A program made the position numbers and the translations under genes. Shown in pieces: positions 4,917 to 30,906 of a DNA stretch of 40,264 nt; position 1 is the first letter of the stretch, and each line of letters begins with the position of its first letter. The notes beneath the pieces were generated by a model that was given only the letters and a program-made list of their open reading frames with translations, had not been told where the DNA came from and ran no database searches. The DNA is from Thomasclavelia sp. (GTDB taxonomy: Bacteria > Bacillota_I > Bacilli_A > Erysipelotrichales > Coprobacillaceae): assembly GCF_017889095.1 (NCBI RefSeq), contig NZ_JAGHEW010000376.1:1-40264 (forward strand), given 5' to 3'.

Positions 4917-5180
4917 ATGATGCCACGTATTATACCCATTAGTGAACTGAAAAATACTGCAGATATTTCCGACAAGTGCCACCAGCAGGACGAACCTATT
5001 TATATTACAAAAAATGGATATGGAGATATGGTCATTATGAGTATAGAAGTGTATGAAAAAATGATGAAAAAATTTGAAATTTACAAAGACATCGAAATCT
5101 CTGAAAAACAGATGAAAGAAGGAAAAGTCAGAGATGCAAGACAGTCATTAAACGAGATGAGAGCAAAATATGGGCTATAA
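4917..5180 (+). CDS. Phd/YefM-family antitoxin
   Basis: MMPRIIPISELKNTADISDKCHQQDEPIYITKNGYGDMVIMSIEVYEKMM; overlaps a RelE/ParE-like gene. Confidence 0.9.
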   Translation: MMPRIIPISELKNTADISDKCHQQDEPIYITKNGYGDMVIMSIEVYEKMMKKFEIYKDIEISEKQMKEGKVRDARQSLNEMRAKYGL

Positions 5181-5481
5181 ATTAGATATAACTGAACGTG
5201 CTGAAGAATTAACTACCCGACAGATCGATTATTTGCTCTACACTGTAAAAAGTGAAAGAGCAGCCAGACATCTTTTTGATGAAATAGATAAAATTTATAG
5301 CCGACTTGAAGAAAATCCTTATCAGTTTCCAATATGTAAAGATAGTTATCTTGCCAGAAAAGGTTATCACGAAGCTGTCTTATCTAATATGAATTATACT
5401 GTTATTTTTTCTATATCCGATATGACAGTCACTGTATTAGGGGTATTTCATCAGTTGGAAAACTATGCTCTAAAAGTTTAG
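5170..5481 (+). CDS. RelE/ParE-superfamily toxin
   Basis: ERAARHLFDEIDKIYSRLEENPYQFPICKDSYLARKGYHEAVLSNMNYTVIFSISDMTVTVLGVFHQ; paired with the upstream antitoxin. Confidence 0.88.
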   Translation: MGYKLDITERAEELTTRQIDYLLYTVKSERAARHLFDEIDKIYSRLEENPYQFPICKDSYLARKGYHEAVLSNMNYTVIFSISDMTVTVLGVFHQLENYALKV

Positions 5482-8281: not shown

Positions 8282-9015
8282 AAACAATAACTGAAGACGG
8301 AATTGTAATGCAATATTTAGATTTGCTTGAATCAAATGATAAGAAAGAAGAACTTAATGAAACCAGAGAACTGCTGGATTATATCAGCAGTCTTGAAAAA
8401 CAGTTTAATCAGGTGGTCAATGAACTTCATGATGTAAGAGAAGTGTTGGACAGTATGCAAAATCCTACAATGAAAGAACGATTAAATCATGTAGTGGATA
8501 AATTACAGGTAACGGTTAATGAAGGAATTAAAAGTTTGAATAGCATCAAGACTCAGCTGATTTCTTCTATGAAAGAATGTATTTCTTCTGTAAAGCAGAA
8601 AGGGAAGAACACTTTAGTGAAGACGGTCAATATTTTGCATATTAAAGATGGCTTGAAAAAATTGCAGAAGAGTTTTTATGCCGGAATGAAAAAAACAATG
8701 GAGTTAGACCATACAAGTCAGCAAATTTCGAGTGAACTGAGCAATGCTAAACGAAATGTAAAAAATGTTGTACGACTTCTAAGAGGAAAAAAGCCATTGG
8801 AAACGGTAAATGACAGCAAAAAAATAACGGTTGTCCAAAAAAGCAGTCGAGCTATGTTTAAAAGATTCAGAACAATGGCTATCAGTAATTCTAAGCTGAT
8901 TCGTAAATTAGATGAGCTGGATAAAAGCTCGGTAAAAAAAGATTTGAAACTTTTAAATCACAAAAGTAAAAATAATCCAAATATGATAATAAATAAAAAG
9001 GCTCCCGAACGTTAA
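8269..9015 (+). CDS. ICE-associated coiled-coil protein (DUF6674-like)
   Basis: MEEMKTITEDGIVMQYLDLLESNDKKEELNETRELLDYISSLEKQFNQVVNELHDVREVL; overlaps the virB4 end. Confidence 0.6.
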   Translation: MEEMKTITEDGIVMQYLDLLESNDKKEELNETRELLDYISSLEKQFNQVVNELHDVREVLDSMQNPTMKERLNHVVDKLQVTVNEGIKSLNSIKTQLISSMKECISSVKQKGKNTLVKTVNILHIKDGLKKLQKSFYAGMKKTMELDHTSQQISSELSNAKRNVKNVVRLLRGKKPLETVNDSKKITVVQKSSRAMFKRFRTMAISNSKLIRKLDELDKSSVKKDLKLLNHKSKNNPNMIINKKAPER

Positions 9016-9030
9016 CGGGAGTCTTTATTA
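9001..9030. terminator. Probable bidirectional terminator between convergent operons
   Basis: CTCCCG (9002-9007) / CGGGAG (9016-9021), A-rich on one side and T-rich on the other, between convergent genes. Confidence 0.7.
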
Positions 9031-9357
9031 TAATCTGTTATTTAAGTAATCGAAGAGTTCCTGATATTTATGTATTTTTTCTTTGTTCGCCATGAGTCCA
9101 ATGGATAATCCGGCAGTAAAAAAGTTAAGAAAATCGCGATATTCTTCATGAAAAAGGATTTGATTCTGCAGGTTCTGATATTTATCTGTCAGTTTTTTTA
9201 CCTCTTCTTTTGGTAAGCTTTTTCTTAGTAAACTGATAATTTCCTTTTCTGTTTCAACTAGTTCGTGAGCGGTTTTTTGATACATTAAATCATGACTGGT
9301 ATCATAGTGATCAAAACTGATCAGTTTTCTGTATATGTCAAGAACGATTTTATCCAT
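9028..9357 (-). CDS. Small conserved hypothetical protein (DUF6809-like), paralog of the next gene
   Basis: 109 aa; C-terminal motif EEYRDFLNFFTAGLSIGLMAN shared in weak form with the adjacent ORF. Confidence 0.6.
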   Translation of the reverse strand: MDKIVLDIYRKLISFDHYDTSHDLMYQKTAHELVETEKEIISLLRKSLPKEEVKKLTDKYQNLQNQILFHEEYRDFLNFFTAGLSIGLMANKEKIHKYQELFDYLNNRL

Positions 9358-9700
9358 TGTGGAATACCTCGCTTTTATTTATGTAGGTTAATATATTATT
9401 TATCATTGGTTCATTTTGATATGAATTTAGTTTTAATCCTAGTAGGATACCGATGGATAATACATTTTTAAAATCATCAAACCGCAGATTAGTTTCATGC
9501 AGGAAATATAGCTGTTCCATCTGATTAAAAATGGCAGCTTTTTCTTTTAATGTTAAGTTTTTATCGGGTTCATTCATCAATGTTTTTTGCAGATCATCGA
9601 TTTGTTTTTCAATCTTTAATATTTTTTTTGAATGCTGATGTGTATTAAACTCTTCTAGATAGTGATCAAATAACAGTTTATAAATATCTTCGTTTTGCAT
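9350..9700 (-). CDS. Small conserved hypothetical protein (DUF6809-like), diverged tandem paralog
   Basis: 116 aa; LRFDDFKNVLSIGILLGLKLN; overlaps the downstream gene by 8 bp; SD-like gggagg before the start. Confidence 0.6.
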   Translation of the reverse strand: MQNEDIYKLLFDHYLEEFNTHQHSKKILKIEKQIDDLQKTLMNEPDKNLTLKEKAAIFNQMEQLYFLHETNLRFDDFKNVLSIGILLGLKLNSYQNEPMINNILTYINKSEVFHNG

Positions 9701-14719: not shown

Positions 14720-14763
14720 AAAAATAGAAGTTTCCTTCTATTTAAAATCAGATAATATAGAAC

Positions 14764-14792
14764 AATCGTACTCAAAAGGTACGATTTTTTTA
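14764..14792 (+). terminator. Intrinsic terminator of the SOS-like operon
   Basis: AATCGTAC (14764-14771) tcaaaag GTACGATT (14779-14786), then a T-rich tail. Confidence 0.85.
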
Positions 14793-14831
14793 TTTTGGAT
14801 TGTATGCTGTTTACGATATTACGAAGAAAAA

Positions 14832-14858
14832 GTCGTAGAATTAACTATTCTACGACCA
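14832..14858 (+). repeat. Left inverted repeat (IR-L) of a putative invertible segment
   Basis: GTCGTAGAATTAACTATTCTACGACCA; internal dyad GTCGTAGAAT-TAACT-ATTCTACGAC. Confidence 0.92.
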
Positions 14859-15009
14859 ATAATATAGCACATATGACTAAAAAGTTAAAGAAAAATATTT
14901 AATTTATGGCGTTTTTGTATTAATTAGTAAAGTTCTTGTACTAAACAACCATTTAGCCATTTTTAACTTATCTAATATGATATTTAGAAAAAGAAAAGGA
15001 GAACAGAAA

Positions 15010-15954
15010 ATGGAAAAAGAAATTTACATCAAAAAATTAGCAGAGGAGTGGCTAAATTATAAAGAATTGACAGTCAAATACTCTACACTAATGAGGTATC
15101 AGGAAATCATTGAGAATTATTTAGAAAACATGGATAAAGAAAAACCAATCAGCAGTTGGAATGAAGTGGACTTTGAAAAGTGGTATTACAACTTTTTAAA
15201 AAATAGCCAACTATCAAAAAGTACTCATAACATGATTAATGTTGTTTTAAAAGATATACTTAAATTTGGTATAAAAAGACATGGATTTGAAAAATGTGAT
15301 TTATCATTTATGAAAAAGCAGAAAGAGAAGAAAGAAATCCAAGTACTAACAAACGATGAATATCAGCGTTTGTTAAGTTATTGTAAGGAAAATATGAATT
15401 TTACTACAGTATCTGTTTATACATGTTTGCACACTGGACTAAGAATTGGTGAGATATGCGGTTTAAAATGGGAAGATATTCAATTAGAAAACCAGACTCT
15501 TTCTGTCAATAGAACAGTTCAAAGAATAAAAAACAAGGATTCTGATGGACCTAAAACGAAAATAATGATTTCATCTCCAAAATCCGATTCATCAGCTAGA
15601 GTTGTGGTTTTAGCTGATTTCTTAATTGACTATCTTAAAGTTTATAAATCAATCGTCCAGCCTAAAACAGAAAACTGTTTCTTGATAACAAATAACACAA
15701 ACACTCCGGATACAAGAAATATACAAAGAAATTTTAAAAGAATTTGTAACAAATTAAATATTTCACTAACTTTTCATGGATTAAGACATACATTTGCAAC
15801 TCACTGTGTTGAATGCTCAATGGATATTAAGACATTAAGTGAGCTTCTAGGACATTCTAGTGTAGCATTTACGATGGATATGTATGTTCACCCAAGCCTA
15901 AATTACATGAAAGAACAGATTAATAAAATATCTAAATTAATGGTCGTAGAATAG
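15010..15954 (+). CDS. Tyrosine site-specific recombinase (XerC/D-like invertase candidate)
   Basis: CLHTGLRIGEICGLKWEDI, LTFHGLRHTFATHCVECSMDIKTLSELLGHSSVAFTMDMYVHP. SD aaaggag before ATG 15010. The gene's 3' end lies inside IR-R. Confidence 0.93.
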   Translation: MEKEIYIKKLAEEWLNYKELTVKYSTLMRYQEIIENYLENMDKEKPISSWNEVDFEKWYYNFLKNSQLSKSTHNMINVVLKDILKFGIKRHGFEKCDLSFMKKQKEKKEIQVLTNDEYQRLLSYCKENMNFTTVSVYTCLHTGLRIGEICGLKWEDIQLENQTLSVNRTVQRIKNKDSDGPKTKIMISSPKSDSSARVVVLADFLIDYLKVYKSIVQPKTENCFLITNNTNTPDTRNIQRNFKRICNKLNISLTFHGLRHTFATHCVECSMDIKTLSELLGHSSVAFTMDMYVHPSLNYMKEQINKISKLMVVE

Positions 15955-15967
15955 TTAATTCTACGAC
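15941..15967 (-). repeat. Right inverted repeat (IR-R) of the putative invertible segment
   Basis: TGGTCGTAGAATAGTTAATTCTACGAC is the exact reverse complement of 14832-14858. Confidence 0.92.
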
Positions 15968-16012: not shown

Positions 16013-16516
16013 ATGTACTGGTATTTCATTAATGTTCAATCAAAGTATACAAAGAGAATTCTTAATTTTTTTAACAGTCAGAATGATACTTTAGCTTTTG
16101 TACCAAAAACAGAAAAATGGATTGGTGCTAAAAGTGTCAGAAGTTACATTGTAAAAGATTTATATCCTGATTACATATTTGTTAAATCAAATTTGAACGA
16201 GAATGAATTTATGGACAAGTATGAGAAGTTTTTCGAGAATATCAAAAATGTTGCCGTTCTAGTAAAACAGGGAAATTCATATTCAATGCAAAAAAGTATA
16301 CAGGATTTATTTGAAAAGCTGTTTGATCAATATGGAGTAATTCTTCATTCTACTGGTAATATCATTCGTTCAAAATTAAAGATTGATCAGGGACCATTAT
16401 GTGGTATGGAAGAATCTATTACTAAAATCAATAGACATCAGCGAACCGCTAAGTTTGATTTCAAAGAGAATAACTTGTCATTGATTGTTCCTTTGGAAAT
16501 CATCAGTAAGAGCTAA
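16013..16516 (+). CDS. NusG-family specialized paralog (LoaP/UpxY-like transcription antiterminator)
   Basis: MYWYFINVQSKYTKRILNFFNSQND..AFVPKTEKWI, DLYPDYIFVKSNL (NGN domain) and KOW-like IDQGPLCGMEESITKINRHQRTAKF. Confidence 0.85.
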   Translation: MYWYFINVQSKYTKRILNFFNSQNDTLAFVPKTEKWIGAKSVRSYIVKDLYPDYIFVKSNLNENEFMDKYEKFFENIKNVAVLVKQGNSYSMQKSIQDLFEKLFDQYGVILHSTGNIIRSKLKIDQGPLCGMEESITKINRHQRTAKFDFKENNLSLIVPLEIISKS

Positions 16517-16536: not shown

Positions 16537-17034
16537 ATGAACTATTATGTTTTATTTTGTCAGACAGTGAAGACAGAAAAAATATGTCAGAGATTGAATA
16601 ATTATGATGAAATACAAGTGTTTATACCAAAAATGGAAAGATATTTTCGATTAAAGAATATTATTGAATTACAGGTTATGTTTCCCGGATATCTATTCAT
16701 TAAAACAGAATTAAGTCAAATGGAATTTGATTCATTGTTACTTTCAATGAATGAACAAAGAGATGGTATCATCAAGGAACTGAAGAAAAAAGAAGTAACT
16801 GCTTTAACTGATGATGAAATCAATCTGTTGCATCGCTTATTAGATAAGGATGCCATATTGAGAATGTCAGAAGGTCATAAGGAAAAAGGAAAGACAGTAG
16901 TGACCAAAGGTCCCCTGATTTTTTTTCAAAAAGATATTATCGATTCTGACAAGAGAGATCAGTTGGCTGTTTTAAATATAAGGTTTCTTGATAGAAATAT
17001 CATTGCAGGTTTGTTATTTAAGCAAAACAAATAA
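16537..17034 (+). CDS. Second NusG-like protein with degenerate C-terminal KOW region
   Basis: MNYYVLFCQTVKTEKICQRLNNYDEIQVFIPKMERYFR, VMFPGYLFIKTEL; C-terminus VVTKGPLIFFQKDIIDSDKRDQLAVLNI lacks the usual G-x-x-G-x-I/V motif. Confidence 0.8.
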   Translation: MNYYVLFCQTVKTEKICQRLNNYDEIQVFIPKMERYFRLKNIIELQVMFPGYLFIKTELSQMEFDSLLLSMNEQRDGIIKELKKKEVTALTDDEINLLHRLLDKDAILRMSEGHKEKGKTVVTKGPLIFFQKDIIDSDKRDQLAVLNIRFLDRNIIAGLLFKQNK

Positions 17035-17152: not shown

Positions 17153-17188
17153 AAACCATATGTAGAAATATGTATGGTTTTTTATTTT
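17153..17188 (+). terminator. Intrinsic terminator-like hairpin in the glycan operon leader
   Basis: AAACCATA (17153-17160) / TATGGTTT (17173-17180) followed by ttttattttt-like tract, upstream of the TTG start at 17252. Confidence 0.7.
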
Positions 17189-17251
17189 GGAATGATAGGA
17201 ATTATAAATTTAAGCTTAAATAACATTGCGAAAAAAAGGGAGAGTGAGAAT

Positions 17252-17824
17252 TTGTATAAAAAATTATTAATTATTGGAGCAGGTGGTCATGGACAATGTT
17301 GTCAGGAAATTGCTTTGGATATGAAAATGTTTTCTCAGATTAATTTTCTTGATGATCATCCTAATGATAAGGTCAATGTTATTGGTACAATTGATGAAAT
17401 GAGCAGTTATTATCCAGAATATGAAAATATCTTTATTGCAATAGGTAACAACACTTTAAGATGCCGTTTAATGAATCAAGCTGAACAGATTGGTTACAGT
17501 CTAGTTTCTTTGATCAGTCCTTATAGTTTTGTTTCAAAATCGGCAATCATTGAAAAAGGTTCAGTAGTTTTTCCTCATGCTGTAATACAGTCCAATACTT
17601 TATTGAAACAAGGAGCTATCTTATCCTCTAATGCTTTGGTTGATCATGATGCTATTATTGGAAAATACTGTCATATCAATGGTGGAGCAATTATTCCATC
17701 TCTAAGTCATGTCAAAGACTTTACAAAAGTTAATTATGGGGAAGTATATGAAACTCTAGAAGAAGACAATAAATGGCAAGAAAAGTATCAACAGGATTTT
17801 GGTAGAGAACCAAGTTTCTTTTAA
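17252..17824 (+). CDS. NeuD/PglD-like sugar O-acyltransferase
   Basis: LYKKLLIIGAGGHGQCCQEIALDM, hexapeptide repeats. SD aaagggaga precedes TTG 17252; the ORF-track start at 17174 overlaps the terminator hairpin. Confidence 0.85.
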   Translation: MYKKLLIIGAGGHGQCCQEIALDMKMFSQINFLDDHPNDKVNVIGTIDEMSSYYPEYENIFIAIGNNTLRCRLMNQAEQIGYSLVSLISPYSFVSKSAIIEKGSVVFPHAVIQSNTLLKQGAILSSNALVDHDAIIGKYCHINGGAIIPSLSHVKDFTKVNYGEVYETLEEDNKWQEKYQQDFGREPSFF

Positions 17825-17836
17825 AAGGAGATAGAT

Positions 17837-18457
17837 ATGTATAGTAAAATATTAAAAAGATGGATTGATTTTGTTTTATCTTTATTGGGACTGATTTTAT
17901 TGAGTCCTGTTTTTATTATTTTATGTATCTGGATAAAGCTAGATTCTAAGGGACCAATATTGTTTAAACAAAAGCGAATAGGAATACATAAAAGACATTT
18001 TGATATCTATAAGTTTAGAACTATGTATGTGGATACCCCTAAAGATATGCCAACGCATATGTTAAGTAATCCCAATCAATATATTACTAAAGCAGGAAAG
18101 TTTTTAAGAAAAACATCCTTAGATGAATTGCCACAAATTATCAATATATTAAAAGGTGAAATGGCAATTATTGGGCCAAGACCGGCATTATGGAATCAAT
18201 ATGATTTAATTGAAGAAAGAGATAAATATAAGGCAAATGATGTCAGACCAGGATTAACAGGCTGGGCGCAGATCAATGGTAGAGATGAACTGGAAATACC
18301 AGTAAAAGCTAAACTAGATGGGGACTATGTCAAGCAAATTTCTTTTTTATTTGATCTAAAATGTTTCTTTGGAACGATTACATCAGTACTTAGAAGTGAT
18401 GGAGTGGTTGAAGGAGGAACAGGAGAAATGCATAAGAGGGATGGTGAAGTATCATGA
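17837..18457 (+). CDS. Polyprenyl-phosphate sugar-phosphate transferase (initiating, PglC/WcaJ-C-terminal-like)
   Basis: KFRTMYVDTP, LRKTSLDELPQIINILKGEMAIIGPRPALWNQYD, VRPGLTGWAQINGRDEL. Confidence 0.95.
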   Translation: MYSKILKRWIDFVLSLLGLILLSPVFIILCIWIKLDSKGPILFKQKRIGIHKRHFDIYKFRTMYVDTPKDMPTHMLSNPNQYITKAGKFLRKTSLDELPQIINILKGEMAIIGPRPALWNQYDLIEERDKYKANDVRPGLTGWAQINGRDELEIPVKAKLDGDYVKQISFLFDLKCFFGTITSVLRSDGVVEGGTGEMHKRDGEVS

Positions 18458-19236
18458 AAAAGATATTGATTACTGGAGCCAACAGTTACATCGGAACTTC
18501 ATTTGAAGACTATATGAAAGATTATTCAGAATATCAAATCGATACATTGGATATGAAAGACCCAAATTGGAACAAATATGACTTTTCAGGATATGATATT
18601 GTTTTCCATGTTGCAGGGATTGCACATCAAAAAGAAACAAAAGAAAATGCTTCTTTATATTATAAGATAAATCGAGATTTGGCGATAGAAGTTGCTACAA
18701 AAGCAAAACAATCCAATGTAAAGCAATTTATTTTTATGAGTAGTATGAGTGTTTATGGATTAGAATATTCAAATGAATTAATAACACTCAACACACCATT
18801 AAAACCTAAGACAAATTATGGAAAAAGTAAAATGGAGGCTGAGGAGCAAATTATGAAATTAGCTGATAAAGATTTTATTATATCCATTGTAAGACCACCA
18901 ATGGTTTATGGAGATGGTTGTCCCGGTAATTTAACTAAATTATTTAATGCAGTTAGGAAAATCCATATTTTTCCTACTATTAGAAATGAAAGAAGTTCTA
19001 TAACTGTAGAAAGATTAAGTGAAAAGATAAATGACATTATTGAGGAGAATAAAAGTGAGATTTATTTGCCACAGAATGATGAATACATGTGTACATATGA
19101 AATTGTAAAAGAACAAATGATAAAAGAAAAAGTAAAAGTATTATTTATTCCCATCTTTAATCCAATTATTAAAATAATGATTGGAAAAGTAAGGTTAATA
19201 ACAAAAGTATTTGGAGATTTGAAATATGAAAAATAA
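18454..19236 (+). CDS. NAD-dependent epimerase/dehydratase
   Basis: MKKILITGANSYIGTSF (Rossmann), FVHVAGIAHQK-type motif, SSMSVYG, TNYGKSKMEAE. Confidence 0.9.
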   Translation: MKKILITGANSYIGTSFEDYMKDYSEYQIDTLDMKDPNWNKYDFSGYDIVFHVAGIAHQKETKENASLYYKINRDLAIEVATKAKQSNVKQFIFMSSMSVYGLEYSNELITLNTPLKPKTNYGKSKMEAEEQIMKLADKDFIISIVRPPMVYGDGCPGNLTKLFNAVRKIHIFPTIRNERSSITVERLSEKINDIIEENKSEIYLPQNDEYMCTYEIVKEQMIKEKVKVLFIPIFNPIIKIMIGKVRLITKVFGDLKYEK

Positions 19237-20320
19237 AGTTTTAATTGTAACAACCACGCCATACATGATTAGACAATTTTTGATGAATGATATTAGTATT
19301 TTACAAGATTTAGACTATCAAGTTGAGGTTGCAACCAATTTTAAAAGCTTTAATGTGATTGATGATGAATCACTAGAACAATTTAGAAAGAAATTAAAAT
19401 CAATGAATATAACTATTCATCAAGTAAATTTTCCAAGAAGAGTTTTTTCAATCATAGAATTATTAAAATCTTATAAGGAAATGAAAAAATTATTATCTAA
19501 TAATTACAAATTAATGCATACACACACTCCTATTGCAAGTGTAATATCTAGATTAGCATCAAAAAAATTCAAAAGCCTAAAAGTGATTTATACTGCTCAT
19601 GGTTTTCATTTTTTTAAGGGTGCTCCTATTATTAATTGGATAACTTTTTATCCTATTGAAAAATGGCTTTCAAAATATACAGATGTTTTAATTACCATTA
19701 ATAGAGAAGATTATGAAATAGCAGAAAGAAATTTTAAAGCAAAAAAAGTAGAGTATGTTCCAGGAATAGGAATTGATATTGATGCAATAAAAAACATAAG
19801 AGTTAATAAGGAAGAAATTAAAAAGTCACTGAAAATACCATCAGAAAATAAAATACTTATTTCTGTTGGGGAATTAAGTAAAAGAAAAAACCATGAACTG
19901 GTGATTAAAGCACTAAAAAATAAGCCAAATATAACATATTTAATCTGTGGTCAAGGGAATTTAAAAGACTATTTAGAAAAAATAGCAGATGAAAATAATG
20001 TTGATTTAAGACTATTAGGATTTAGAAATGATAGGATAGAACTTATAAAAATAAGTGATATTTTCGTTTTTCCTTCATTACAAGAAGGGTTGCCTGTTGC
20101 ACTTATGGAAGCTATGGCTTGTGGGTGTGTGTGCGTTGTAAGTAAGATAAGAGGAAATGTTGATTTAATATCTAACAACTTATTTGATCCATTAGATATT
20201 GACGACTGTAGAAAATGTGTTTTTTCAGCTTCCAATGAATTGATCAATTTAGAACAAATGGAAAAATATTCGACAAATTATATTAAATCAATAGTTAAAG
20301 ATATATATGTTAAAATTTAG
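19226..20320 (+). CDS. GT4-family glycosyltransferase
   Basis: MHTHTPIASVISRLA, YTAHGFHFFKGAP, ISVGELSKRKNHE, FVFPSLQEGLPVALMEAMACG. Confidence 0.92.
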   Translation: MKNKVLIVTTTPYMIRQFLMNDISILQDLDYQVEVATNFKSFNVIDDESLEQFRKKLKSMNITIHQVNFPRRVFSIIELLKSYKEMKKLLSNNYKLMHTHTPIASVISRLASKKFKSLKVIYTAHGFHFFKGAPIINWITFYPIEKWLSKYTDVLITINREDYEIAERNFKAKKVEYVPGIGIDIDAIKNIRVNKEEIKKSLKIPSENKILISVGELSKRKNHELVIKALKNKPNITYLICGQGNLKDYLEKIADENNVDLRLLGFRNDRIELIKISDIFVFPSLQEGLPVALMEAMACGCVCVVSKIRGNVDLISNNLFDPLDIDDCRKCVFSASNELINLEQMEKYSTNYIKSIVKDIYVKI

Positions 20321-20333
20321 AAAGGAACATGGT

Positions 20334-21428
20334 ATGACAGATAAAACTACAATATCCATAATTATCAGTGGCTTGAAAAATGGAGGTGTAGAAAGATACT
20401 TACTGAATAATTTAGAAGGGAAGATTTTGGAAAAATTTAATTTTGTTTTGGTATACCAACATAATCCAGATCTAGAAATTCTAAATAAATTTAAAGAAAA
20501 AAAAATAAAGTGTATTAGAGTGCATTCTAAAGAAAAACATCTCATTAAACACATCATAGAACTTTATTCAATAATGAGAAAATATAATATAGAGATAGTG
20601 CATGCTCATCAAACAACTATGAATTTTATACCCTTATCTGTAGCTTCTTTTTGTGGTATAAAACATAGGATTAGTCATTCACATAATGCAAAAATTGTTT
20701 ATAAAAAAAGGATTTATAGTAAGTTAGATAAAATATTTATATTTCTTACTAATTTTTTTCTAACAGAAAGAATATCTTGTGGTGTCGCAGCTGGAAAATA
20801 TTTATATGGAAAAAAGAATTTTACTATATTTTATAATGCAATAGAATTAGATAAATTTACTTTTGATGAACAAAAAAGACGCATAATAAGAGAAGAATGT
20901 AATATAGATGATAATTGTATATTGTTAGGGAATATTGGTAGATTTACTATGCAAAAAAATCAGAAATTTTTAATAAATCTTATCAAAGAATTAAATGGAA
21001 ACTATAAATTAATGATTGTAGGTGATGGTCCGCTTAAAAATGAAGTGAAATCTTTATCTGAAAAACTAAAATGTAGCAATAAAATAATTTTCATTGAGCC
21101 TAATGATAAGATTGATTTTTATTATGCTGCTTTTGATATTTTTTTGCTTCCTAGTCTGTGGGAAGGACTTCCTTTTGTTCTTGTTGAAGCACAAGTTAAT
21201 GGACTTAAATGTATATGTTCTTCAAATGTAGACAGATCTGTACTAATTGATGATATTACCTTTTTAGATCCAAATAATGTGGACGAGTGGATTGATCAAA
21301 TAAAAATAATTGGGAAAGATTATGATAGAACAATACAATACAATAAATATGATAACTATAACTTATGCTTTTCTAGAAATAAATTAATAGAATTATATTG
21401 TTCTTTAATAAACAAAGATGTGAGGTGA
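20334..21428 (+). CDS. GT4-family glycosyltransferase
   Basis: ISGLKNGGVERYLLNNL, ISHSHNAK, GNIGRFTMQKNQKFLI, LLPSLWEGLPFVLVEAQ. ATG 20334 preceded by aaaggaac. Confidence 0.92.
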   Translation: MTDKTTISIIISGLKNGGVERYLLNNLEGKILEKFNFVLVYQHNPDLEILNKFKEKKIKCIRVHSKEKHLIKHIIELYSIMRKYNIEIVHAHQTTMNFIPLSVASFCGIKHRISHSHNAKIVYKKRIYSKLDKIFIFLTNFFLTERISCGVAAGKYLYGKKNFTIFYNAIELDKFTFDEQKRRIIREECNIDDNCILLGNIGRFTMQKNQKFLINLIKELNGNYKLMIVGDGPLKNEVKSLSEKLKCSNKIIFIEPNDKIDFYYAAFDIFLLPSLWEGLPFVLVEAQVNGLKCICSSNVDRSVLIDDITFLDPNNVDEWIDQIKIIGKDYDRTIQYNKYDNYNLCFSRNKLIELYCSLINKDVR

Positions 21429-21432
21429 TTTA

Positions 21433-22581
21433 ATGGAAAAAATTAAAGTATTGCATGTGTTTCAAAGAATGCGAACTGGTGGAGCAGAAACTTTAATTAT
21501 GAATATATTTAGAAAAATGGATCATGAAAGAATACAATTTGATTTTCTTTGTATGAGTAACGAACCCGGAGAATATGATGACGAAATTAAAGAAAACGGA
21601 GGTAATATTTTCATTATTGATTCTCCAAAAGAATGCGGTGCAATTAAGCATATATTGCAAATAATAAAAGTTATAAAATCAAATAATGGATATGACATAA
21701 TACATGTACCTACTATGTTTCACTCGGGTATAGTTTGTTTTGCTGCATTTTTAGCTGGCGTAAAAGTAAGAATTGTTCATTCACATAACGCGAGTGAATT
21801 TAATCGAAATACAATAAAAAGAAGAATTTATAGAACTCTTTCAAGATTAATGATTGCTCTTTTTTGTACCGATAAAATAGCTTGTGGATATAAAGCAAGG
21901 GACTATTTATTTGGTAACTCTAAAAAAATACAGCGTGAAACAATGATTTTATATAATGGTATAGATTTACATAAGTATAAATTTATTGATATTGATTTAG
22001 TAAGTGAATTAAAAAAGGAATTTGATATTTCTGATGAAATTATAATAGGTAACGTTGCAAGGTTTGAAGAACAAAAAAATCATATCTTTTTTATACGCTT
22101 TGCCCAATATTTAAAAGATAAGAAAATTCCTGCAAAAATAATTTTAGTAGGAGATGGAAAATTAAAACAAGAAATAGAAGCACAAGTGAAAAAAAATAGA
22201 TTGGAGTCTTACATTAATTTTGCTGGTGTTAGAACTAATATACCTGAATTTATGAATTTATTTGATGTATATATAATGCCATCACTATATGAAGGTTTCC
22301 CTTTGACGGTTGTTGAAGCTCTTGCTTCAGGCACTAATTGTGTATTATCTGATACCATTTCAAAAGAGGTGTCGATAATTGATGATGCAGTAAAGTTTGT
22401 TGGTTTAGATGATGATTTGTCCAAATGGTATAATGCAGTTATAACTTGTAATAATAAAAAAACAGATAGGAATAAATATATTGAAATATTAAAAGAAAAA
22501 GGTTTTTCTTCGGAATATACGACTAATAAATTAGTTAATTTTTATCTAAAAAAAGGTAGCGAAATTTATGAAAAAAAATAA
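21433..22581 (+). CDS. GT4-family glycosyltransferase (EpsF-like)
   Basis: VLHVFQRMRTGGAETLIMNIFRKMD, IVHSHNAS, GNVARFEEQKNH, IMPSLYEGFPLTVVEALASG. Confidence 0.93.
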   Translation: MEKIKVLHVFQRMRTGGAETLIMNIFRKMDHERIQFDFLCMSNEPGEYDDEIKENGGNIFIIDSPKECGAIKHILQIIKVIKSNNGYDIIHVPTMFHSGIVCFAAFLAGVKVRIVHSHNASEFNRNTIKRRIYRTLSRLMIALFCTDKIACGYKARDYLFGNSKKIQRETMILYNGIDLHKYKFIDIDLVSELKKEFDISDEIIIGNVARFEEQKNHIFFIRFAQYLKDKKIPAKIILVGDGKLKQEIEAQVKKNRLESYINFAGVRTNIPEFMNLFDVYIMPSLYEGFPLTVVEALASGTNCVLSDTISKEVSIIDDAVKFVGLDDDLSKWYNAVITCNNKKTDRNKYIEILKEKGFSSEYTTNKLVNFYLKKGSEIYEKK

Positions 22582-23995
22582 ATATCTATTATTGTTTTTA
22601 ATGCTAACTATTTTATCTTTATTGTTATCAGTTTCAATAGATTTATTTATCGGTAATTATAAATTATGGTTAGTATATTATTCTTGGTTAATAGTTGCAT
22701 ATTTTGTTTTAAGTTTATTCTTTTTTAAGTTTTTAAAAATAGATTTTATTGCAATATCATTTATGTTTGTAATATTTTATTTTATTTTTATATTTGGACA
22801 GGTAATCTGCCGATTTGGATTTAATTTTGTTGATTCAAATTCTTACGATTTCTTTGCTGATTTTACTTTAAAACAGATAGCTGACGGTGTAAGAATATCG
22901 TTTTATTGTTTTATAACATTGATTGTAGGAATTTTTATTTCTAAAATAATAAAATTTAAAACTAGTAATTCTACCAATAATAGTATCAAAAAAGAGAAAT
23001 CGCTTATAACACAAGATCAATTAAAAATTATAAGGATTGTAAGTTTTGCATTTATTTTTATTTCTTTTCCTTTTTTCTTAATAGAGTTTGTAACAGACTT
23101 CCAACTCTCATCAAATTACGGGTACACAGCTGTAGCTACTAATTATGGGGTAGGTCTAAATTCAATTGGTGAAAAAATAGCCCCTTATTTTAATGTAGCA
23201 ATGTTAATGTTGATGATATCATATAAACAAAACTTAAAAAAAGCAAAAATAATTGCCATAGTTTTTGCTTCATATAATTTAATTTCTATATTATTTGGTT
23301 CAAGAGGATTACCTTTATTAAATATTTTATTTTTGATAATTATTTGGAATAATCTGATTAAACCTTTAAAAAAAAGGCAGTTGATTAACTTTCTTTTGCT
23401 TTCAATACCATTGACAATTATGATCGCTTTTATGAGAATTGCAAGAGATTATTCTATTAATGAATGGATTTCTCATATTGATATAATTATGCTAGAAATC
23501 TTAAAGAATAATCCTATTTTTCTGGTTTTAAATGAAATGGGAATTGCAATATTTCCTACATCTGCTTCACTATGTATTTATCCCACAGCATCAAATTATA
23601 AATTTGGGACTACATACCTATATGGTTTATTATCTATAATTCCAAATTTTGGAAGTTCTTTAAGTATAGCCAAATTAAACGGTGATATCCAACTTGAAAT
23701 ATCTAAATTTTATGGACTAGCCTTTGGAGGATCCATTGTTGGTGATTTATATGCAAATTTTGGTTATTTAACTATTATTATTTTTTTAGTTATTGGCTTT
23801 TATCTATATAAATTAGATTTGATAATTAAATATGGTAATTCTGATATAAAAAAGGGTTTAATGTTAATTTATTGTATTCAGGTCATTTGGTCAATTAGAA
23901 ATAATATAAATCCTTTAATTCGTTATTTTGTATGGTATATATTGCCATTATACTTTTTGTATTTATTACTTTATAGGAAATATAGGAGGGAATGA
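22568..23995 (+). CDS. Wzy-like oligosaccharide repeat unit polymerase
   Basis: 475 aa, about 10+ TM segments, within a glycan cluster; ILFGSRGLPLLNILFLI. Confidence 0.8.
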   Translation: MKKNKYLLLFLMLTILSLLLSVSIDLFIGNYKLWLVYYSWLIVAYFVLSLFFFKFLKIDFIAISFMFVIFYFIFIFGQVICRFGFNFVDSNSYDFFADFTLKQIADGVRISFYCFITLIVGIFISKIIKFKTSNSTNNSIKKEKSLITQDQLKIIRIVSFAFIFISFPFFLIEFVTDFQLSSNYGYTAVATNYGVGLNSIGEKIAPYFNVAMLMLMISYKQNLKKAKIIAIVFASYNLISILFGSRGLPLLNILFLIIIWNNLIKPLKKRQLINFLLLSIPLTIMIAFMRIARDYSINEWISHIDIIMLEILKNNPIFLVLNEMGIAIFPTSASLCIYPTASNYKFGTTYLYGLLSIIPNFGSSLSIAKLNGDIQLEISKFYGLAFGGSIVGDLYANFGYLTIIIFLVIGFYLYKLDLIIKYGNSDIKKGLMLIYCIQVIWSIRNNINPLIRYFVWYILPLYFLYLLLYRKYRRE

Positions 23996-25041
23996 TGAAA
24001 AATAGGCCTAAAGTATCAATTATTGTTCCAATTTTTAATTGTGAAAAATATTTAAATAAATGCATTAATTCACTTTTGAGTCAAACAGAAAAAAACATAG
24101 AAGTAATATTGATTAATGATGGTTCGACTGACAACAGTTATGATATAGCTAGGAAATATGAATTAATAGATTCGAGGATAAAACTGATTAATCAAGAAAA
24201 CAATGGAGTTTCTTTTACAAGAAATAAAGGAATTAAAATTTCAAACGGTGAGTATATTATGTTTATTGATTCTGATGATTGGATAGAAGAAAATACATTG
24301 GAGATAATGTTAAACTCACTTAAAAAGTTTAAAAGTAATTATGTCAGGATTGCATGTACAAAAGATATAGTTGATATTAGGAAAAATTATGTATGTGATG
24401 TTATTTTTGATTATCCAGTTTATGTAAAAAGAGAATCTTTTAAATACGAAGTATTTAATGCTTTTTTAAACACTTATTCAATGAATTCTCCATGTCTATT
24501 TTTAGTGAAGAGAGAATTGTTAATAAAAAATAATATTTATTTTGATGTTAACAGGTTTTATGGAGAAGATTTATTATTTAATATAGAAATATTCAAATAT
24601 CTTGAAAATGCCATCTTTTTACCCAATCCTTGTTATCATTATGTATATAATACTAATAGCTTAACTACTAACAATTCTAAGGAAATAATAGAGAAAAAGA
24701 TTTACAATGTTATATTAAATTATTCTGCTTTATTTCAACTAGTTGATTTATTTGAAGTTACTGATTCTACAGTGAATGAAAAAATTAACAATAGAATTTT
24801 AAAAGAAGTAAATGATTGTATAATTAATATTTATTGTAATAATCTGATTATTCCAAAAAAAGATAGACTATTTTTAATTAATTTAGCAAATGATATGGTA
24901 AAAGAAAAATGTAATATAGAACTTTACCATGACATAAAAAAAATAGATAATAAGTTTTTTTTAAAGAAAAGAACAAGATATATTATAAAAAAGTATATAC
25001 GTAGACTTTTTGCTTATATTTATAGAAAGGGAACTAACTAG
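23992..25041 (+). CDS. GT2-family glycosyltransferase
   Basis: KVSIIVPIFNCEKYLNKCINSLLSQTEKNIEVILINDGSTDNS, GEYIMFIDSDDWIEENTL. Confidence 0.95.
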   Translation: MMKNRPKVSIIVPIFNCEKYLNKCINSLLSQTEKNIEVILINDGSTDNSYDIARKYELIDSRIKLINQENNGVSFTRNKGIKISNGEYIMFIDSDDWIEENTLEIMLNSLKKFKSNYVRIACTKDIVDIRKNYVCDVIFDYPVYVKRESFKYEVFNAFLNTYSMNSPCLFLVKRELLIKNNIYFDVNRFYGEDLLFNIEIFKYLENAIFLPNPCYHYVYNTNSLTTNNSKEIIEKKIYNVILNYSALFQLVDLFEVTDSTVNEKINNRILKEVNDCIINIYCNNLIIPKKDRLFLINLANDMVKEKCNIELYHDIKKIDNKFFLKKRTRYIIKKYIRRLFAYIYRKGTN

Positions 25042-25042
25042 T

Positions 25043-25685
25043 ATGAAATTAATAAAAATACTTTTTTATCCAGTAAAAAAAGTATATACAAACTGTAATT
25101 TTAAAATTTAAATTTTATGATTCCCAAATCAATACAAACAATATTCATAATAGTGAGGTTGGAAGTGATTGTAGTATTAATACAAATACAGTCGTTTTTA
25201 ATAGTGTGATTGGAGATTATTCATATTTAAATTATAATTCAATTGTAGAAAACTGTGTTATTGGAAAATTTGTAAGTATTGGATCATTTTGTGAAATAGG
25301 AGCTTATTGTCATCCTACTAATTATATTTCAACCTCTCCTAAGATTTATGGAAGTGGAAGTATTTTACCAATAAAAGATAAAAAGAGTGTTTCTGTTAGG
25401 GATAGGAAAACTATTATTGGCAATGATGTTTGGATTGGAAGTAATGTTGTAATTCTTGAAGGTGTAAAAATTGGAAATGGTGCAATTATTGCTGCAGGAG
25501 CAGTTGTCACAAAAGATGTGAATGATTTTGAGATTGTTGGTGGTATACCAGCAATTGTTTTAAAGAATAGATTTGATAAAAACATCGTTAAAAAGATTAA
25601 TAATCTAAAATGGTGGAATTTGAATTCAAAACAAGAATTAACAGAACTCGCAAATATGAAAGAAGATTTTTACAAATATCTATAA
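25043..25685 (+). pseudogene. Hexapeptide-repeat acetyltransferase interrupted by a frameshift
   Basis: ATG 25043 frame reads MKLIKILFYPVKKVYTNCNFKI* to TAA 25109; hexapeptide coding resumes in another frame (KFYDSQINTNIHNSEVGSDCSINTNTVVFNSVIGDYSY...). The called ORF starts only at an internal GTG 25206. Confidence 0.7.
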
Positions 25686-26036
25686 TAATATTTACGATTT
25701 ATATTCAATGTAAAATAAAATATTCATAAGAAAAGAATTAGTATCTTTATTTAACACAGGGTACCAATAATTAATATGGAATAGTTTTTGGAAAAATGTT
25801 TAGAATCGCTATAAAAACAGACATATTATAATCAATTTAAACTTTAAAAAAACAATTTCTCGTTATTATCAGAAAAAATATAGGAATTGAAGAAACAGAG
25901 TTTAATAGACAACATTTGTTGATTGATAATTATTAAAAAATAAGAATGAAATTATGAATAAATTATTATGCATAAATAAAAAGGGATATTATATTAATTA
26001 TTCAGAATATAAAACAAATGTTAATAGGAGGTATTT

Positions 26037-27152
26037 ATGAAAAAATACGCTATTTTTTTACCACAATTTCATGAAATTCCAGAAAATAATGAGTGGTGGG
26101 GGAAAGGTTTTACAGAATGGACTAATGTAAAAAAAGGTAGGCCTTTATTTAATGGACATATTCAACCAAAAAAACCATTAAATAATAATTATTATAATTT
26201 GTTAAAAAAAGAGACAATGATAAATCAAACTAATTTAATGAATAAGTATCATATAGATGGAATGGCATACTATCATTACTATTTTAAAGGAAAGAAATTA
26301 TTGGAGAAGCCTGTTGAAAATCTTCTAGAATGGACTGATATCCAGCAAAATTTCTTTTTTATTTGGGCTAATCATTCCTGGGTTAGAACTTGGGAAGGTA
26401 AAAGGGATGTTCTAGTAGAACAGGAATACGGAAATAAAGAGGATTGGGAAAATCATTTTTTATATTTAATAAAATTTTTTAAAGATGATAGGTATGAAAA
26501 GAAAAATAATAAGCCCATTTTTGGCATATTTAATCCTGATATTCCTAATAAAAATGAAATGTTTAAATATTTTGATTTTAGATGTCAACAAGAAGGCTTT
26601 TCAGGTATTTATATATTTGAATCTTATGCTTCGCAATCAAAAGAGAACTTTCCACAAAATTATAATAAATTTATAGAACAAACTAGTAAATATACAAAGG
26701 CAGTTGCCATTAGACAACCAGCTTTTTGTGAATATGATACTGTTATTGGTTTAAAAAAAATTATTTATGTTTATTATAGAATGTGGATGAGAAGTACAAA
26801 AAGAAAGAGCAAGAAACCCTTGGTTTTGAATGGTAATAAAATGATTGAAAAGTATTTAAAAATAAAATTTCCAGTATGCGAGAAAGATATTATTCCAGGA
26901 ATATTCTTTGAATGGGATAATACAGCAAGACATAAAAGTAGGGGATATGTCATAACTCCTTTAGATAAAAGGCATTTTTTTGCATTAATGAATCATGTGA
27001 AGAAATCAGAATATATATTGATTAATGCATGGAATGAATGGTGTGAAGGAATGATACTAGAACCAACTGAAGAAAGTGGATATAAATATTTAGAATGGAT
27101 TAAGGAATGGAGTGAAAAAAATGAAAATAGGATTAATGGGATTCGAATTTAG
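26037..27152 (+). CDS. WbsX-family (GH99-like) glycan biosynthesis protein
   Basis: MKKYAIFLPQFHEIPENNEWWGKGFTEWTNVKKGRPLFNGHIQPKKPL, FIWANHSWVRTWEG, INAWNEWCEGMILEPTEESGYKYLEW. Confidence 0.9.
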   Translation: MKKYAIFLPQFHEIPENNEWWGKGFTEWTNVKKGRPLFNGHIQPKKPLNNNYYNLLKKETMINQTNLMNKYHIDGMAYYHYYFKGKKLLEKPVENLLEWTDIQQNFFFIWANHSWVRTWEGKRDVLVEQEYGNKEDWENHFLYLIKFFKDDRYEKKNNKPIFGIFNPDIPNKNEMFKYFDFRCQQEGFSGIYIFESYASQSKENFPQNYNKFIEQTSKYTKAVAIRQPAFCEYDTVIGLKKIIYVYYRMWMRSTKRKSKKPLVLNGNKMIEKYLKIKFPVCEKDIIPGIFFEWDNTARHKSRGYVITPLDKRHFFALMNHVKKSEYILINAWNEWCEGMILEPTEESGYKYLEWIKEWSEKNENRINGIRI

Positions 27153-28284
27153 CTCAGCTAATAAAGGGTGTGAGGCATTGTCGTATTCTTTTTTAGAAAT
27201 ATTAAATGATATTTTTCAAGATAATGAATATCCAATTGAAATTTATAATTTTACAGAGTATGATTTAGGGCTTTTACCAGAATCTTATAATAAATTTGAT
27301 TTTTATCAAATTGTACCAAAATTAAAAGATTTTAGCTTTACTTATTTACGTATGCTAAAAAAATGTGATTTTATATTTGATATAACTATGGGTGATAGCT
27401 TTTCAGATATATATTCAATAAAATACTATAATTCATTAATGAGAAACAAGCGGATTGCAAGTATATTTGCAGGTAAGTACATATTATTACCTCAAACATA
27501 CGGACCATTTAATTTGGCAGAGTCTAGAAAAAAAGCTCAAAAAGTTTTGAAAAAGAGTAAAAAAATCTATTGTAGAGATGAACTATCTCAAAAACTTTTA
27601 GAAGAAAAATTTAATATTAATGATTCACAATTGGTTACAGATATTGCTTTTTTCTTGCCATATGATAAATCTTTGTACGAATTTAATACTAACAATACTA
27701 AAATTGGGATCAATGTATCAGGGTTGCTTTATAAAGGTGGATTTAACGAAAATAATCAATTCAATTTATCTATAGATTATAAACAATTTATAAACAATAT
27801 TCTAAAATATTTTGAAAAACTAGTATATGAAGGTTATGAAATTTACTTAATTCCACATGTAATTGATTTAAATAAAAATTCTAATGATGATGACTATAAA
27901 ATTAGTAAAGAATTGATAGAATTATACCCTTCACTCAAATTGGCACCAATATTTGAAAATCCAATCCAAGCTAAAAGTTTTATTAGTAATATGGATATAT
28001 TTATAGGATCTAGAATGCATTCTACGATTGCAGCATTTTCTTCTGGTGTTCTTACTATACCTATTTCTTATAGTAGAAAGTTTGAAGGATTATTTAATAG
28101 TTTTGATTATCCATATGTAATTAATGGTAGAACAGAAAGTACTTCTTCAGGCATAAATAAAGTCATAGAGTATATTAATAAAAAAGAAATATTACAGGGA
28201 AAACAAAAAAAATCTAAAGAAATTATAGACAGTTTAAGTAGTGAATTTAAAAATAGTATAAAAGAAATACTATTTAATATTTAA
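27121..28284 (+). CDS. Polysaccharide pyruvyl transferase family protein
   Basis: MKIGLMGFEFSSANKGCEALSYSFL, FIGSRMHSTIAAFSSGVLTIPISYSRKFEGLF. Confidence 0.88.
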   Translation: MKIGLMGFEFSSANKGCEALSYSFLEILNDIFQDNEYPIEIYNFTEYDLGLLPESYNKFDFYQIVPKLKDFSFTYLRMLKKCDFIFDITMGDSFSDIYSIKYYNSLMRNKRIASIFAGKYILLPQTYGPFNLAESRKKAQKVLKKSKKIYCRDELSQKLLEEKFNINDSQLVTDIAFFLPYDKSLYEFNTNNTKIGINVSGLLYKGGFNENNQFNLSIDYKQFINNILKYFEKLVYEGYEIYLIPHVIDLNKNSNDDDYKISKELIELYPSLKLAPIFENPIQAKSFISNMDIFIGSRMHSTIAAFSSGVLTIPISYSRKFEGLFNSFDYPYVINGRTESTSSGINKVIEYINKKEILQGKQKKSKEIIDSLSSEFKNSIKEILFNI

Positions 28285-28309
28285 ATATAGTAAAGAGGAG
28301 GTTAGAACA

Positions 28310-30034
28310 ATGAACTATACCAACAATGATAATATAGAAATTATCACTACTTTATTAAAAAAGCATAAAATTAAGGATATTATAATTAGTCCTGGAGGAA
28401 CAAATATTCCTTTAATAAAATCCTTACAAAAAGATGATTTTTTTACTTGTTATTCTATTGTTGATGAAAGAAGTGCTATATATTTTGCTATAGGAGTATA
28501 CCTTCAAACAGGTAACATTGTGGCGACTGTGTGCACTAGTGCACAAGCTACTAGAAATTATATTCCAGGTTTGACAGAAGCTTACTACAAGCATGTTCCT
28601 ATATTAGCTATTACAATGGAAAAGCATCCACGTTTTACTTATCAAGAGTATATGCAAGCCCCTGATCAAACATCATTACCAAATGATTCAGTAAAAAAAT
28701 CAGTAGAATTGCCTTATATAAGTGATAGTAATGATGTTTATCATAGCATAAGATGTGTCAATGAGGCTATCTTAGAGTTGAGTAGAGAGGGAATGGGACC
28801 AGTACAATTATGTGTACCCTGGCTAGATTTCCCATTAAAAAGCAATAACATCAAAATCAGATCCATAAATAGATTTAGTAAAGACGATATTAAAGACTTA
28901 GAAATAAAAGATAAGAGTATAATGCTAGTGATAGGGGAACATAGGCCATTTAATAAAGAACAAACAGAAATTATAAATCGCTTTTGTGAGAATTATAACG
29001 TAATGGTTTATGTAAACCATTTGTCTAATTTTAATAATAAATATTCAATAAATGCTAACCTTCTTTTATCTACAATGAAGGATGAAGAATTTAATAACTT
29101 AAAACCTGATGTTTTTATTACAATAGGTGGTCAAACAGGCGATTATCCTTTATTTTTGACATTATCAAACAATAATATTGATATTGAGCATTGGAGAATT
29201 TGTGAAGATGGAAAGATAGTGGATACATATGACAAATTAACTAGGATATATCAATGTAGCCTAGAAGAATTTTTTAGTAATGTTCAGGATGCAGAATGTA
29301 AAGAACATTCATATTACCGTAAATGGGAATTAGCAAGGAAAGAAAAAAATATAAATATAAATGTTCCATTTTCAAGTTTATCAATTGCACAGTACCTGCA
29401 TAATAAGATACCGAAATCATCTATTATACAATTTTCAATATTACACAGTTTGCGAATTTGGAATTTATTTGAATTAGATTCATCTATAGAATGTTATTCA
29501 AATGTCGGAGCATTTGGAATAGACGGTGGAATGTCTACTCTTATTGGTCAAAGTATTGTTACAGATAAGCTATCCTTTATTATTATAGGTGATTTAGCTT
29601 TTTACTATGATATGAATTCTTTAGGAATAAGAGATATAAAAAGCAATTTAAGAATATTGCTTATTAATAATAATGGTGGTGTAGAATTTAAATTACATGG
29701 TGGAAATAATAAAGAAATAAATGAGTATATAGCTGCCGGAAATCATTTTAATAATGCCGAAGGGTGGGCAAATACATGTGGATTTCTTTATTTATCAGCT
29801 CATTCCATGGATGAGTTTATAAAATATTCTGAAAAATTTTTATCTGAATCGGATTTACCTATTATATTAGAGGTTTTTGTTAGCGATGAAGATGAAAGTG
29901 AGGCATATAATAGAGTGCTTGAATTTAACAAAAATTTATCTGTAAGCGAACAGGTCAAAAAGACTGTGAAAAACTCAGTAAAAACAATATTAGGGAAAAA
30001 AGCAGTTGATAAAATTAGAGAGTTAAAGAGGTAA
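28310..30034 (+). CDS. Thiamine diphosphate-dependent enzyme (MenD-like)
   Basis: IISPGGTNIPL, DERSAIYFAIGVYLQTGNIVATVCTSAQATRNYIPGLTEAYY, C-terminal ThDP region IIGDLAFYYDMNSLG...LLINNNGG. Confidence 0.87.
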   Translation: MNYTNNDNIEIITTLLKKHKIKDIIISPGGTNIPLIKSLQKDDFFTCYSIVDERSAIYFAIGVYLQTGNIVATVCTSAQATRNYIPGLTEAYYKHVPILAITMEKHPRFTYQEYMQAPDQTSLPNDSVKKSVELPYISDSNDVYHSIRCVNEAILELSREGMGPVQLCVPWLDFPLKSNNIKIRSINRFSKDDIKDLEIKDKSIMLVIGEHRPFNKEQTEIINRFCENYNVMVYVNHLSNFNNKYSINANLLLSTMKDEEFNNLKPDVFITIGGQTGDYPLFLTLSNNNIDIEHWRICEDGKIVDTYDKLTRIYQCSLEEFFSNVQDAECKEHSYYRKWELARKEKNININVPFSSLSIAQYLHNKIPKSSIIQFSILHSLRIWNLFELDSSIECYSNVGAFGIDGGMSTLIGQSIVTDKLSFIIIGDLAFYYDMNSLGIRDIKSNLRILLINNNGGVEFKLHGGNNKEINEYIAAGNHFNNAEGWANTCGFLYLSAHSMDEFIKYSEKFLSESDLPIILEVFVSDEDESEAYNRVLEFNKNLSVSEQVKKTVKNSVKTILGKKAVDKIRELKR

Positions 30035-30037
30035 AAA

Positions 30038-30892
30038 ATGAGGACTTTAGAGTTGATATATAAAATTAAACAGAAATTAACAAAAATAGAAAAAGAAAAA
30101 GTTCTTATTCCTGTTTATAACGGGTGTTTATTAAAAGATAGAATAGCATTTATTACAGGAGGTTCTTCTGGAATAGGATATGCAATTGCTAGTTCATTTT
30201 TAAGAAATGGTGCAAAAGTAATTATTTCAGGAAGAAATATTGATAGATTAAATATTGCAAAAGATAAGTTGATTAAAGAAACTGATTGTAATGAGAGTGA
30301 TATAATATGTTTTGAATTAGATATTACTAGAATTAATTATAATGAAAATAAATTAAATTCATTTTTAGATCAATATAAGAATATTGATATTTTTGTTAAT
30401 AACGCAGGCATAAATAAAGGTGAATCATTTCCAAATACAGATTTAATTGATTATGAAAATGTTTTGGATACAAATTTAAAAGGAATGTATTTTTTTTCAC
30501 AATATATATTTAAATATATGATAAAGAATAAGATACATGGAAATATACTTATTATTAATTCTTCTTCTTCTCTTAGACCTGCTATAACACCATATATTGT
30601 TTCTAAATGGGGTGAAAGATCACTTACTTTAGGTATGGCAAAAAAAGCATTGCAATATGGAATTACTGTTAATGGATTAGCTCCAGGTTCAACTTTAACA
30701 CCTATGTTAGAAAAAGGAAATAAAACAGATCTTTCTTTAGATTATTCTCCAATTAAAAGATATATTGCACCAGAAGAAATTGGAAATATGGCTACATTTT
30801 TAGTTAGTGATATGGGAAAGACTATTATTGGAGATACAATATATATGACAGGAGGAGCAGGAGTTATTACATATGATGATATGCAGTATTAG
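30038..30892 (+). CDS. Short-chain dehydrogenase/reductase
   Basis: RIAFITGGSSGIGYAIASSFLRNGAKVIISGRN, VNNAGINKGE, catalytic S-Y-K region (SSSSLRPAITPYIVSKWG). Confidence 0.93.
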   Translation: MRTLELIYKIKQKLTKIEKEKVLIPVYNGCLLKDRIAFITGGSSGIGYAIASSFLRNGAKVIISGRNIDRLNIAKDKLIKETDCNESDIICFELDITRINYNENKLNSFLDQYKNIDIFVNNAGINKGESFPNTDLIDYENVLDTNLKGMYFFSQYIFKYMIKNKIHGNILIINSSSSLRPAITPYIVSKWGERSLTLGMAKKALQYGITVNGLAPGSTLTPMLEKGNKTDLSLDYSPIKRYIAPEEIGNMATFLVSDMGKTIIGDTIYMTGGAGVITYDDMQY

Positions 30893-30906
30893 GAAAGGGG
30901 AATATT

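Follow-up and report, generated by a model that had tools for sequence, protein, structure and literature searches.

Capsule promoters of Bacteroides precede UpxY-type antiterminators and are flipped by Mpi, a serine recombinase, or by an adjacent tyrosine invertase. Such switches place an antiterminator gene behind an invertible promoter, with the invertase encoded outside the segment (PMC8748976; PMC11892184). The Hin flagellar switch of Salmonella carries its invertase gene within an invertible segment of about 1 kb that bears the promoter of the neighboring operon (PMC9368917; PMC5903667 gives Hin as an example). In a 2025 inverton survey of a gut community, the median count for Bacillus-like Firmicutes was 0, and invertases close to invertons were generally not regulatable by them (PMC11892184); for this reason, self-flipping cassettes are probably under-recognised.

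The locus described here lies in 40,264 nucleotides of Thomasclavelia sp. DNA (contig NZ_JAGHEW010000376.1), referred to throughout as the window. It contains a segment bearing a predicted promoter between inverted recombination sites (an inverton). As in the Bacteroides capsule switches, a small repeat-bounded promoter is followed by a NusG paralogue as the first gene of a capsule operon, several loci are found per genome, and some lie on integrative conjugative elements (ICEs) (PMC8748976; PMC11892184). The analogy to these promoters, drawn in a first-pass annotation of the sequence, is supported in function and in target layout. The two systems differ in the position of the invertase, which is elsewhere or beside the switch in Bacteroides and inside the segment in the window. 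They also differ in the promoter, which is of the TTTG/TANNTTTG type in Bacteroides and, as a predicted motif, of the sigma-70 TATAAT type in this Firmicutes host.

The Hin switch shares with the window an invertase inside its own flipping segment of about 1 kb. However, Hin is a serine recombinase with Fis and an enhancer in hin, whereas the window has a tyrosine recombinase and a switched promoter that is divergent from the invertase gene. The RecV switches of Clostridioides difficile (cwpV, flg, and cmr) resemble the window in their Firmicutes host, tyrosine recombinase, and surface phase variation (PMC5903667). RecV acts on distant sites from outside the segments, and no self-flanked recombinase cassette is involved. 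No report of a tyrosine invertase inside the segment combined with Firmicutes LoaP-like capsule targets, and no description of an inversion switch followed by two LoaP-like genes, was found in the open-access literature searched.

The region from 14832 to 15967 is best explained, with fairly high confidence, as a self-contained phase-variation cassette in which the inverted state would be ON and the assembled state OFF. Firmicutes gut commensals would thereby gain capsule phase variation of a kind best known so far from Bacteroides. The design is compact and would be portable, as promoter and invertase share one 1.1-kb flipping unit, and units of this kind precede genes for capsule, adhesins, and restriction-modification. 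The features are collected in Table 1.

Table 1. Features of the cassette and its neighborhood in the window, ordered by position.
Feature	Position	Strand	Description
Hairpin followed by a T run	14722-14743	-	Fold; would halt leftward transcription
Intrinsic terminator of upstream operon	14764-14786	+	Predicted to insulate the segment
IR-L hairpin followed by TTTTCTTCGT	14831-14857	-	Predicted to terminate outward transcription when OFF
IR-L recombination site	14832-14858	.	GTCGTAGAAT-TAACT-ATTCTACGAC + CA; exact inverted copy of IR-R; site family shared with other loci of the genome
Invertible segment	14859-15940	.	Holds the recombinase, the recombinase's own candidate promoter, and the predicted outward promoter; homologous segments are inverted between L297 and L298
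Predicted phase-variable outward promoter	14861-14888	-	TTAACT-N16-TATATT with TG extension; faces left, away from the capsule genes in the assembly
Weak candidate promoter of recombinase	14954-14981	+	TAGCCA-N16-TATGAT; putative; TATGATATT stretch also in the 78%-identical orthologue L287
Tyrosine recombinase (invertase)	15010-15954	+	314 aa; PF00589, E 1.7e-31; residues invariant in alignment
IR-R recombination site	15941-15967	.	Exact reverse complement of IR-L; covers the recombinase stop codon
LoaP/NusG-like antiterminator 1 (LoaP1)	16013-16516	+	PF02357; NF033641 LoaP E 2e-22, under the curated cut-off; first gene of the putatively switched operon
LoaP/NusG-like antiterminator 2 (LoaP2)	16537-17034	+	PF02357 and LoaP model match under the cut-off
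Capsule/EPS cluster, predicted target	17174-32304	+	ORFs; named from inspection and from homology among loci

Recombination Sites and Recombinase

The first-pass annotation had described perfect 27-bp inverted repeats (IRs) around a tyrosine recombinase, upstream of two NusG-like genes. Their coordinates and exact complementarity were confirmed, and with few mismatches the match stretches to 44 nucleotides at 91%. Each site has a 5-nucleotide asymmetric core within a 10-bp dyad, with the two cores opposed, and the recombinase stop codon (TAG) lies inside IR-R after a C-terminus of VVE, both as first described. The pattern GTCGTAGAATN5ATTCTACGAC occurs at two places in the whole window, even when three mismatches are allowed, and at none in 100 shuffles.

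A search of the host genome for further copies of the site, which had been proposed at the outset, gave 13 places with three or fewer mismatches in a genome-wide pattern search. IR pairs of the window's kind recur at other loci and therefore represent a site family, not a chance palindrome. Eight site pairs were compared, seven from the genome of the window and one from its closest relative, L287. Mismatches between partners are confined to the arms; the core sequences, which vary from locus to locus, are identical within each pair. L287 is 78% identical to the window over 2.4 kb and has the same orientation. Its core differs from that of the window, and its two sites share one core with a single arm mismatch between them. 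Judging from these alignments, the core is under constraint, in the pattern that strand exchange between partners would require.

The recombinase has a catalytic domain with the R, K, H-x-x-R, H, and nucleophilic Y of tyrosine recombinases and does not belong to the serine resolvase/invertase family. Across 20 aligned relatives, residues R145, H256, R259, H282, and Y292 do not vary. Among solved structures, XerA is the closest in sequence. A 325-aa ORF beginning at 14977 represents an upstream alternative start. The gene lies inside the segment bounded by its sites, which is the Hin-type layout. The earlier proposal that an invertase placed there could be expressed in both orientations is supported.

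Predicted Target Operon and Surrounding Element

A NusG paralogue is the first gene of the capsule operon behind the predicted invertible promoter. LoaP antiterminators are known from Bacillus velezensis, and the first two genes of the operon match the LoaP model (NF033641) at 79.9 and 90.9 bits, below the curated cut-off of 125, so that the proteins are LoaP-like only. With the UpxY model, whose cut-off is 100, the two NusG paralogues reach 31-33 bits. The capsule/EPS cluster encodes a sugar transferase, an epimerase, glycosyltransferases, and putative Wzy- and Wzx-like proteins. By inspection, it also contains a MenD-like thiamine-dependent enzyme (28310-30034), which is unusual in such a cluster.

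Type IV secretion genes are located upstream of the cassette, and an integrase is encoded at 37316-38386. These conjugation genes and the integrase fit the ICE context first proposed. A RelB/RelE-like pair (4917-5481) and a PemK-like gene (36263-36640) were also recognized in the conjugative element by inspection.

Predicted Outward Promoter and Polarity

A second promoter is predicted at the 5' end of the recombinase gene. It is directed outward, divergent from the recombinase gene, and in a fixed register with the repeat. In the window this promoter is a motif match within AT-rich DNA, which gives many weak matches, and promoter-like sites in the window are fewer than in shuffles. Every LoaP-linked cassette examined has a sigma-70-type promoter directed outward at this end, usually with the -10 about 5 bases from the dyad. 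Promoter scores were compared across 47 loci, anchored on the dyad. The mean score is 10.2 for the outward direction at the recombinase 5' end, versus 7.9 for the same DNA read inward and 7.4 for the other segment end (Wilcoxon p ~2e-9). The outward promoter in this set is often a full TTGACA-N17-TATAAT. A TG-extended -10 in exact register with the site is present in seven loci: the window, its orthologue L287, C272, C325, and the recombinase-less C75, C76, and C103. The best argument that the outward promoter is the working part of the cassette is that cassettes without a recombinase keep it.

The outward promoter faces left in the window, and the assembled state is therefore predicted to be OFF for the capsule genes. 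For the ON state, the recombinase would have to be directed away from nusG, as it is in L298 and L056. The first-pass annotation had assigned the states the other way. It held that the recombinase transcript passes IR-R into nusG, so that the assembled state is ON and its inverse OFF. The recombinase is indeed co-directional with LoaP1, with 58 bp from its stop to the LoaP1 start, and ATTTTATTAA, which comes after the IR-R hairpin, is weaker as a terminator tail than the sequence at IR-L. This polarity is nevertheless unlikely in view of a conserved, well-placed promoter that is directed outward from the opposite end, is the only promoter retained in recombinase-less cassettes, and contrasts with near-background scores at the recombinase 3' end. 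Read-through from the recombinase promoter is probably the wrong source of transcription, as the conserved promoter is separate, on the minus strand (14888-14861), and the earlier polarity is probably reversed. The earlier idea that the LoaP/NusG-like genes and the capsule operon are under an ON/OFF switch is itself supported.

In the preferred reading, the tyrosine recombinase would join the two inverted sites through their common asymmetric core and flip the segment together with its own gene. The recombinase would be made in both orientations from its own inward promoter. The second, stronger promoter, a few bases from the site, would read outward. In the ON state, with the segment inverted relative to the assembly, this promoter would face LoaP1 and LoaP2 and lead to transcription and antitermination of the capsule operon. 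In the OFF state, which is the assembled one, it would point left into a hairpin and terminators.

At the left end of the window's segment, the minus-strand IR hairpin runs into TTTTC, and further terminators follow. The IR hairpin with a T run was also considered as an OFF-side terminator for the family as a whole. It holds at the window and C325, fails in the L050-L053 group, and was rejected in this wider role.

Among sampled loci with one clear target side, 26 are in the putative OFF orientation and 6 in the ON orientation. This excess could also mean that the orientation labelled OFF is the functional one, or that flipping is rare.

Inversion between Related Loci

Both orientations of this locus type occur in nature between the same flanks. 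L297 (G083:C12) and L298 (G071:C13), which come from two sister species, have collinear flanks on both sides, with 95.7% and 96.2% identity. Between them, a 1.12-kb recombinase cassette bounded by identical 24-bp IRs is inverted, with 96.2% identity and breakpoints at the IRs. The order of these loci (cassette, LoaP1, LoaP2, sugar transferase, epimerase, glycosyltransferases) is the layout of the window, and the segment of L298 precedes LoaP-like genes of 172 aa and 162 aa. The window recombinase shares only about 34% identity with those of L297 and L298. A third relative, L290, has its cassette in the window's orientation. A second pair, L059 and L060, has opposite cassette orientations between common flanks (GmrSD-like restriction enzyme, 49% over 760 aa; D12 methylase, 48%). 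In Beduini massiliensis (L056/L082) and G002 (L057), the recombinase is directed away from LoaP1.

Site-specific inversion, the central claim of the first-pass annotation, is thus strongly supported by comparison, in relatives that flip at the repeats; for the window copy, no inverted or alternative junction was found in its own genome assembly when searched with the window locus. The cassette of the window very probably flips itself to turn the capsule operon on and off, as judged from these sequence comparisons. The absence of an inverted junction in the assembly would also fit a family that inverts and a window copy that is locked or inactive; stop codons interrupt one related recombinase, that of L057. 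A locked copy is quite improbable, however, as the recombinase of the window is intact with its conserved residues present, the sites are perfect over 27 bp, and the orthologue L287 retains a site pair with a common core.

The first 55 bp of contig L118 join the right flank to the left end of the segment. This is as expected if the reads held both orientations and would be an assembly-graph sign of a mixture. Two contigs of the window's own genome begin inside or exactly at a recombination site (L182, C224, 1-12; L007, C76, 1-25), which mixed-orientation reads could cause. In L057 (G002:C13), the outward promoter at the broken recombinase (8509-9441) faces LoaP1, and the switch may be locked ON.

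Other Cassettes in the Same Genome

At least seven cassettes of this kind are present in the genome of the window. Site pairs with three or fewer mismatches are present at C135 (the window), C325, C75, C103, C76, and C372. In C272, the recombinase is followed by a second, degenerate site; in C237, a site lies between LoaP1 and what remains of a recombinase gene. A LoaP pair is present at each of C135, C75, C272, C237, C224, and C325.

Cassettes C135, C272, and C325 contain a recombinase. The recombinase-less cassettes C75, C76, C103, and C372 are 170-350 bp in length and carry sites related to those of the recombinase cassettes. The outward promoter faces away from the target in C75 and C103. 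C372 has TTGAAA-N17-TATAAT directed at its LoaP-like gene and is predicted to be ON. The cassette of C103 (L008, 811-1005) is a putative invertible promoter of 170 bp before a GH25 lysozyme-like gene, directed away from it.

Neither these recombinase-less sister switches nor the wide Firmicutes distribution described below was foreseen in the first-pass annotation. Tentatively, the genome may contain a master-and-slave capsule network, in which the recombinases of C135, C272, and C325 would also flip C75, C76, C103, and C372 in trans, with the site core deciding which ends join. The capsule repertoire of a Firmicutes gut commensal would then be shuffled by a system that arose independently of the Bacteroides one and was spread by mobile elements.

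Distribution of the Family

Homologues were found by an alignment-based search of genome contigs; a single-sequence search of these contigs with the window recombinase gave no match. A viral sequence search and a phage collection gave distant relatives only. Among homologues with enough flanking sequence, a recombinase was called self-flanked when an inverted repeat pair around it scored at least 20. This is the case for 42 of 79 Firmicutes-type (non-Bacteroidota) homologues, unlike those of Bacteroidota (0 of 24), and for 1 of 283 comparably long control ORFs from these loci. In the recombinase tree, the self-flanked label is clustered (23 changes vs 37 when shuffled) and does not form a single clade.

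Among the hosts are Thomasclavelia, Beduini, Lachnospiraceae, Ruminococcus, Oscillospiraceae, and Enterococcus plasmids. A homologous locus is present in Thomasclavelia saccharogumia DSM 17460 (L085). No strain-level flips of self-flanked recombinases were found among near-identical Enterococcus plasmid records.

L101, L104, and L105 carry near-identical cassettes in DNA that is shared between genera and presumably mobile. Together with the homologues on Enterococcus plasmids and the frequency of element integration among tyrosine recombinases, this would fit an integron- or transposon-like mobile unit whose IRs are insertion ends and not part of an inversion switch. Such a unit is very unlikely, since in L297 and L298 the segment alone is inverted between collinear flanks, the position of cassettes is repeatedly the same, immediately upstream of LoaP or surface genes, recombinase-less cassettes keep both sites and the promoter, and the sites are inverted, not direct.

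Self-flanked homologues are present on Enterococcus raffinosus megaplasmids and an E. faecalis plasmid (L265, L266, and L272), and another megaplasmid (L264) has a homologue upstream of accessory Sec genes. In L059 and L060, the genes next to the cassette encode a DNA methylase of the D12 class and a restriction enzyme resembling GmrSD. Layouts in L300, L301, and L302 are similar, and these five cassettes apparently represent phase-variable restriction-modification. In L080 (G004:C21, 7184-8289), a self-flanked cassette lies between divergent giant surface-protein genes, with Cna_B repeats on the left and FctA/VWA on the right, and is possibly an either/or adhesin switch. In four loci of gut Clostridia (L103, L126, L148, and L152), cassettes are located before a LytTR response regulator-like gene or its neighbors.
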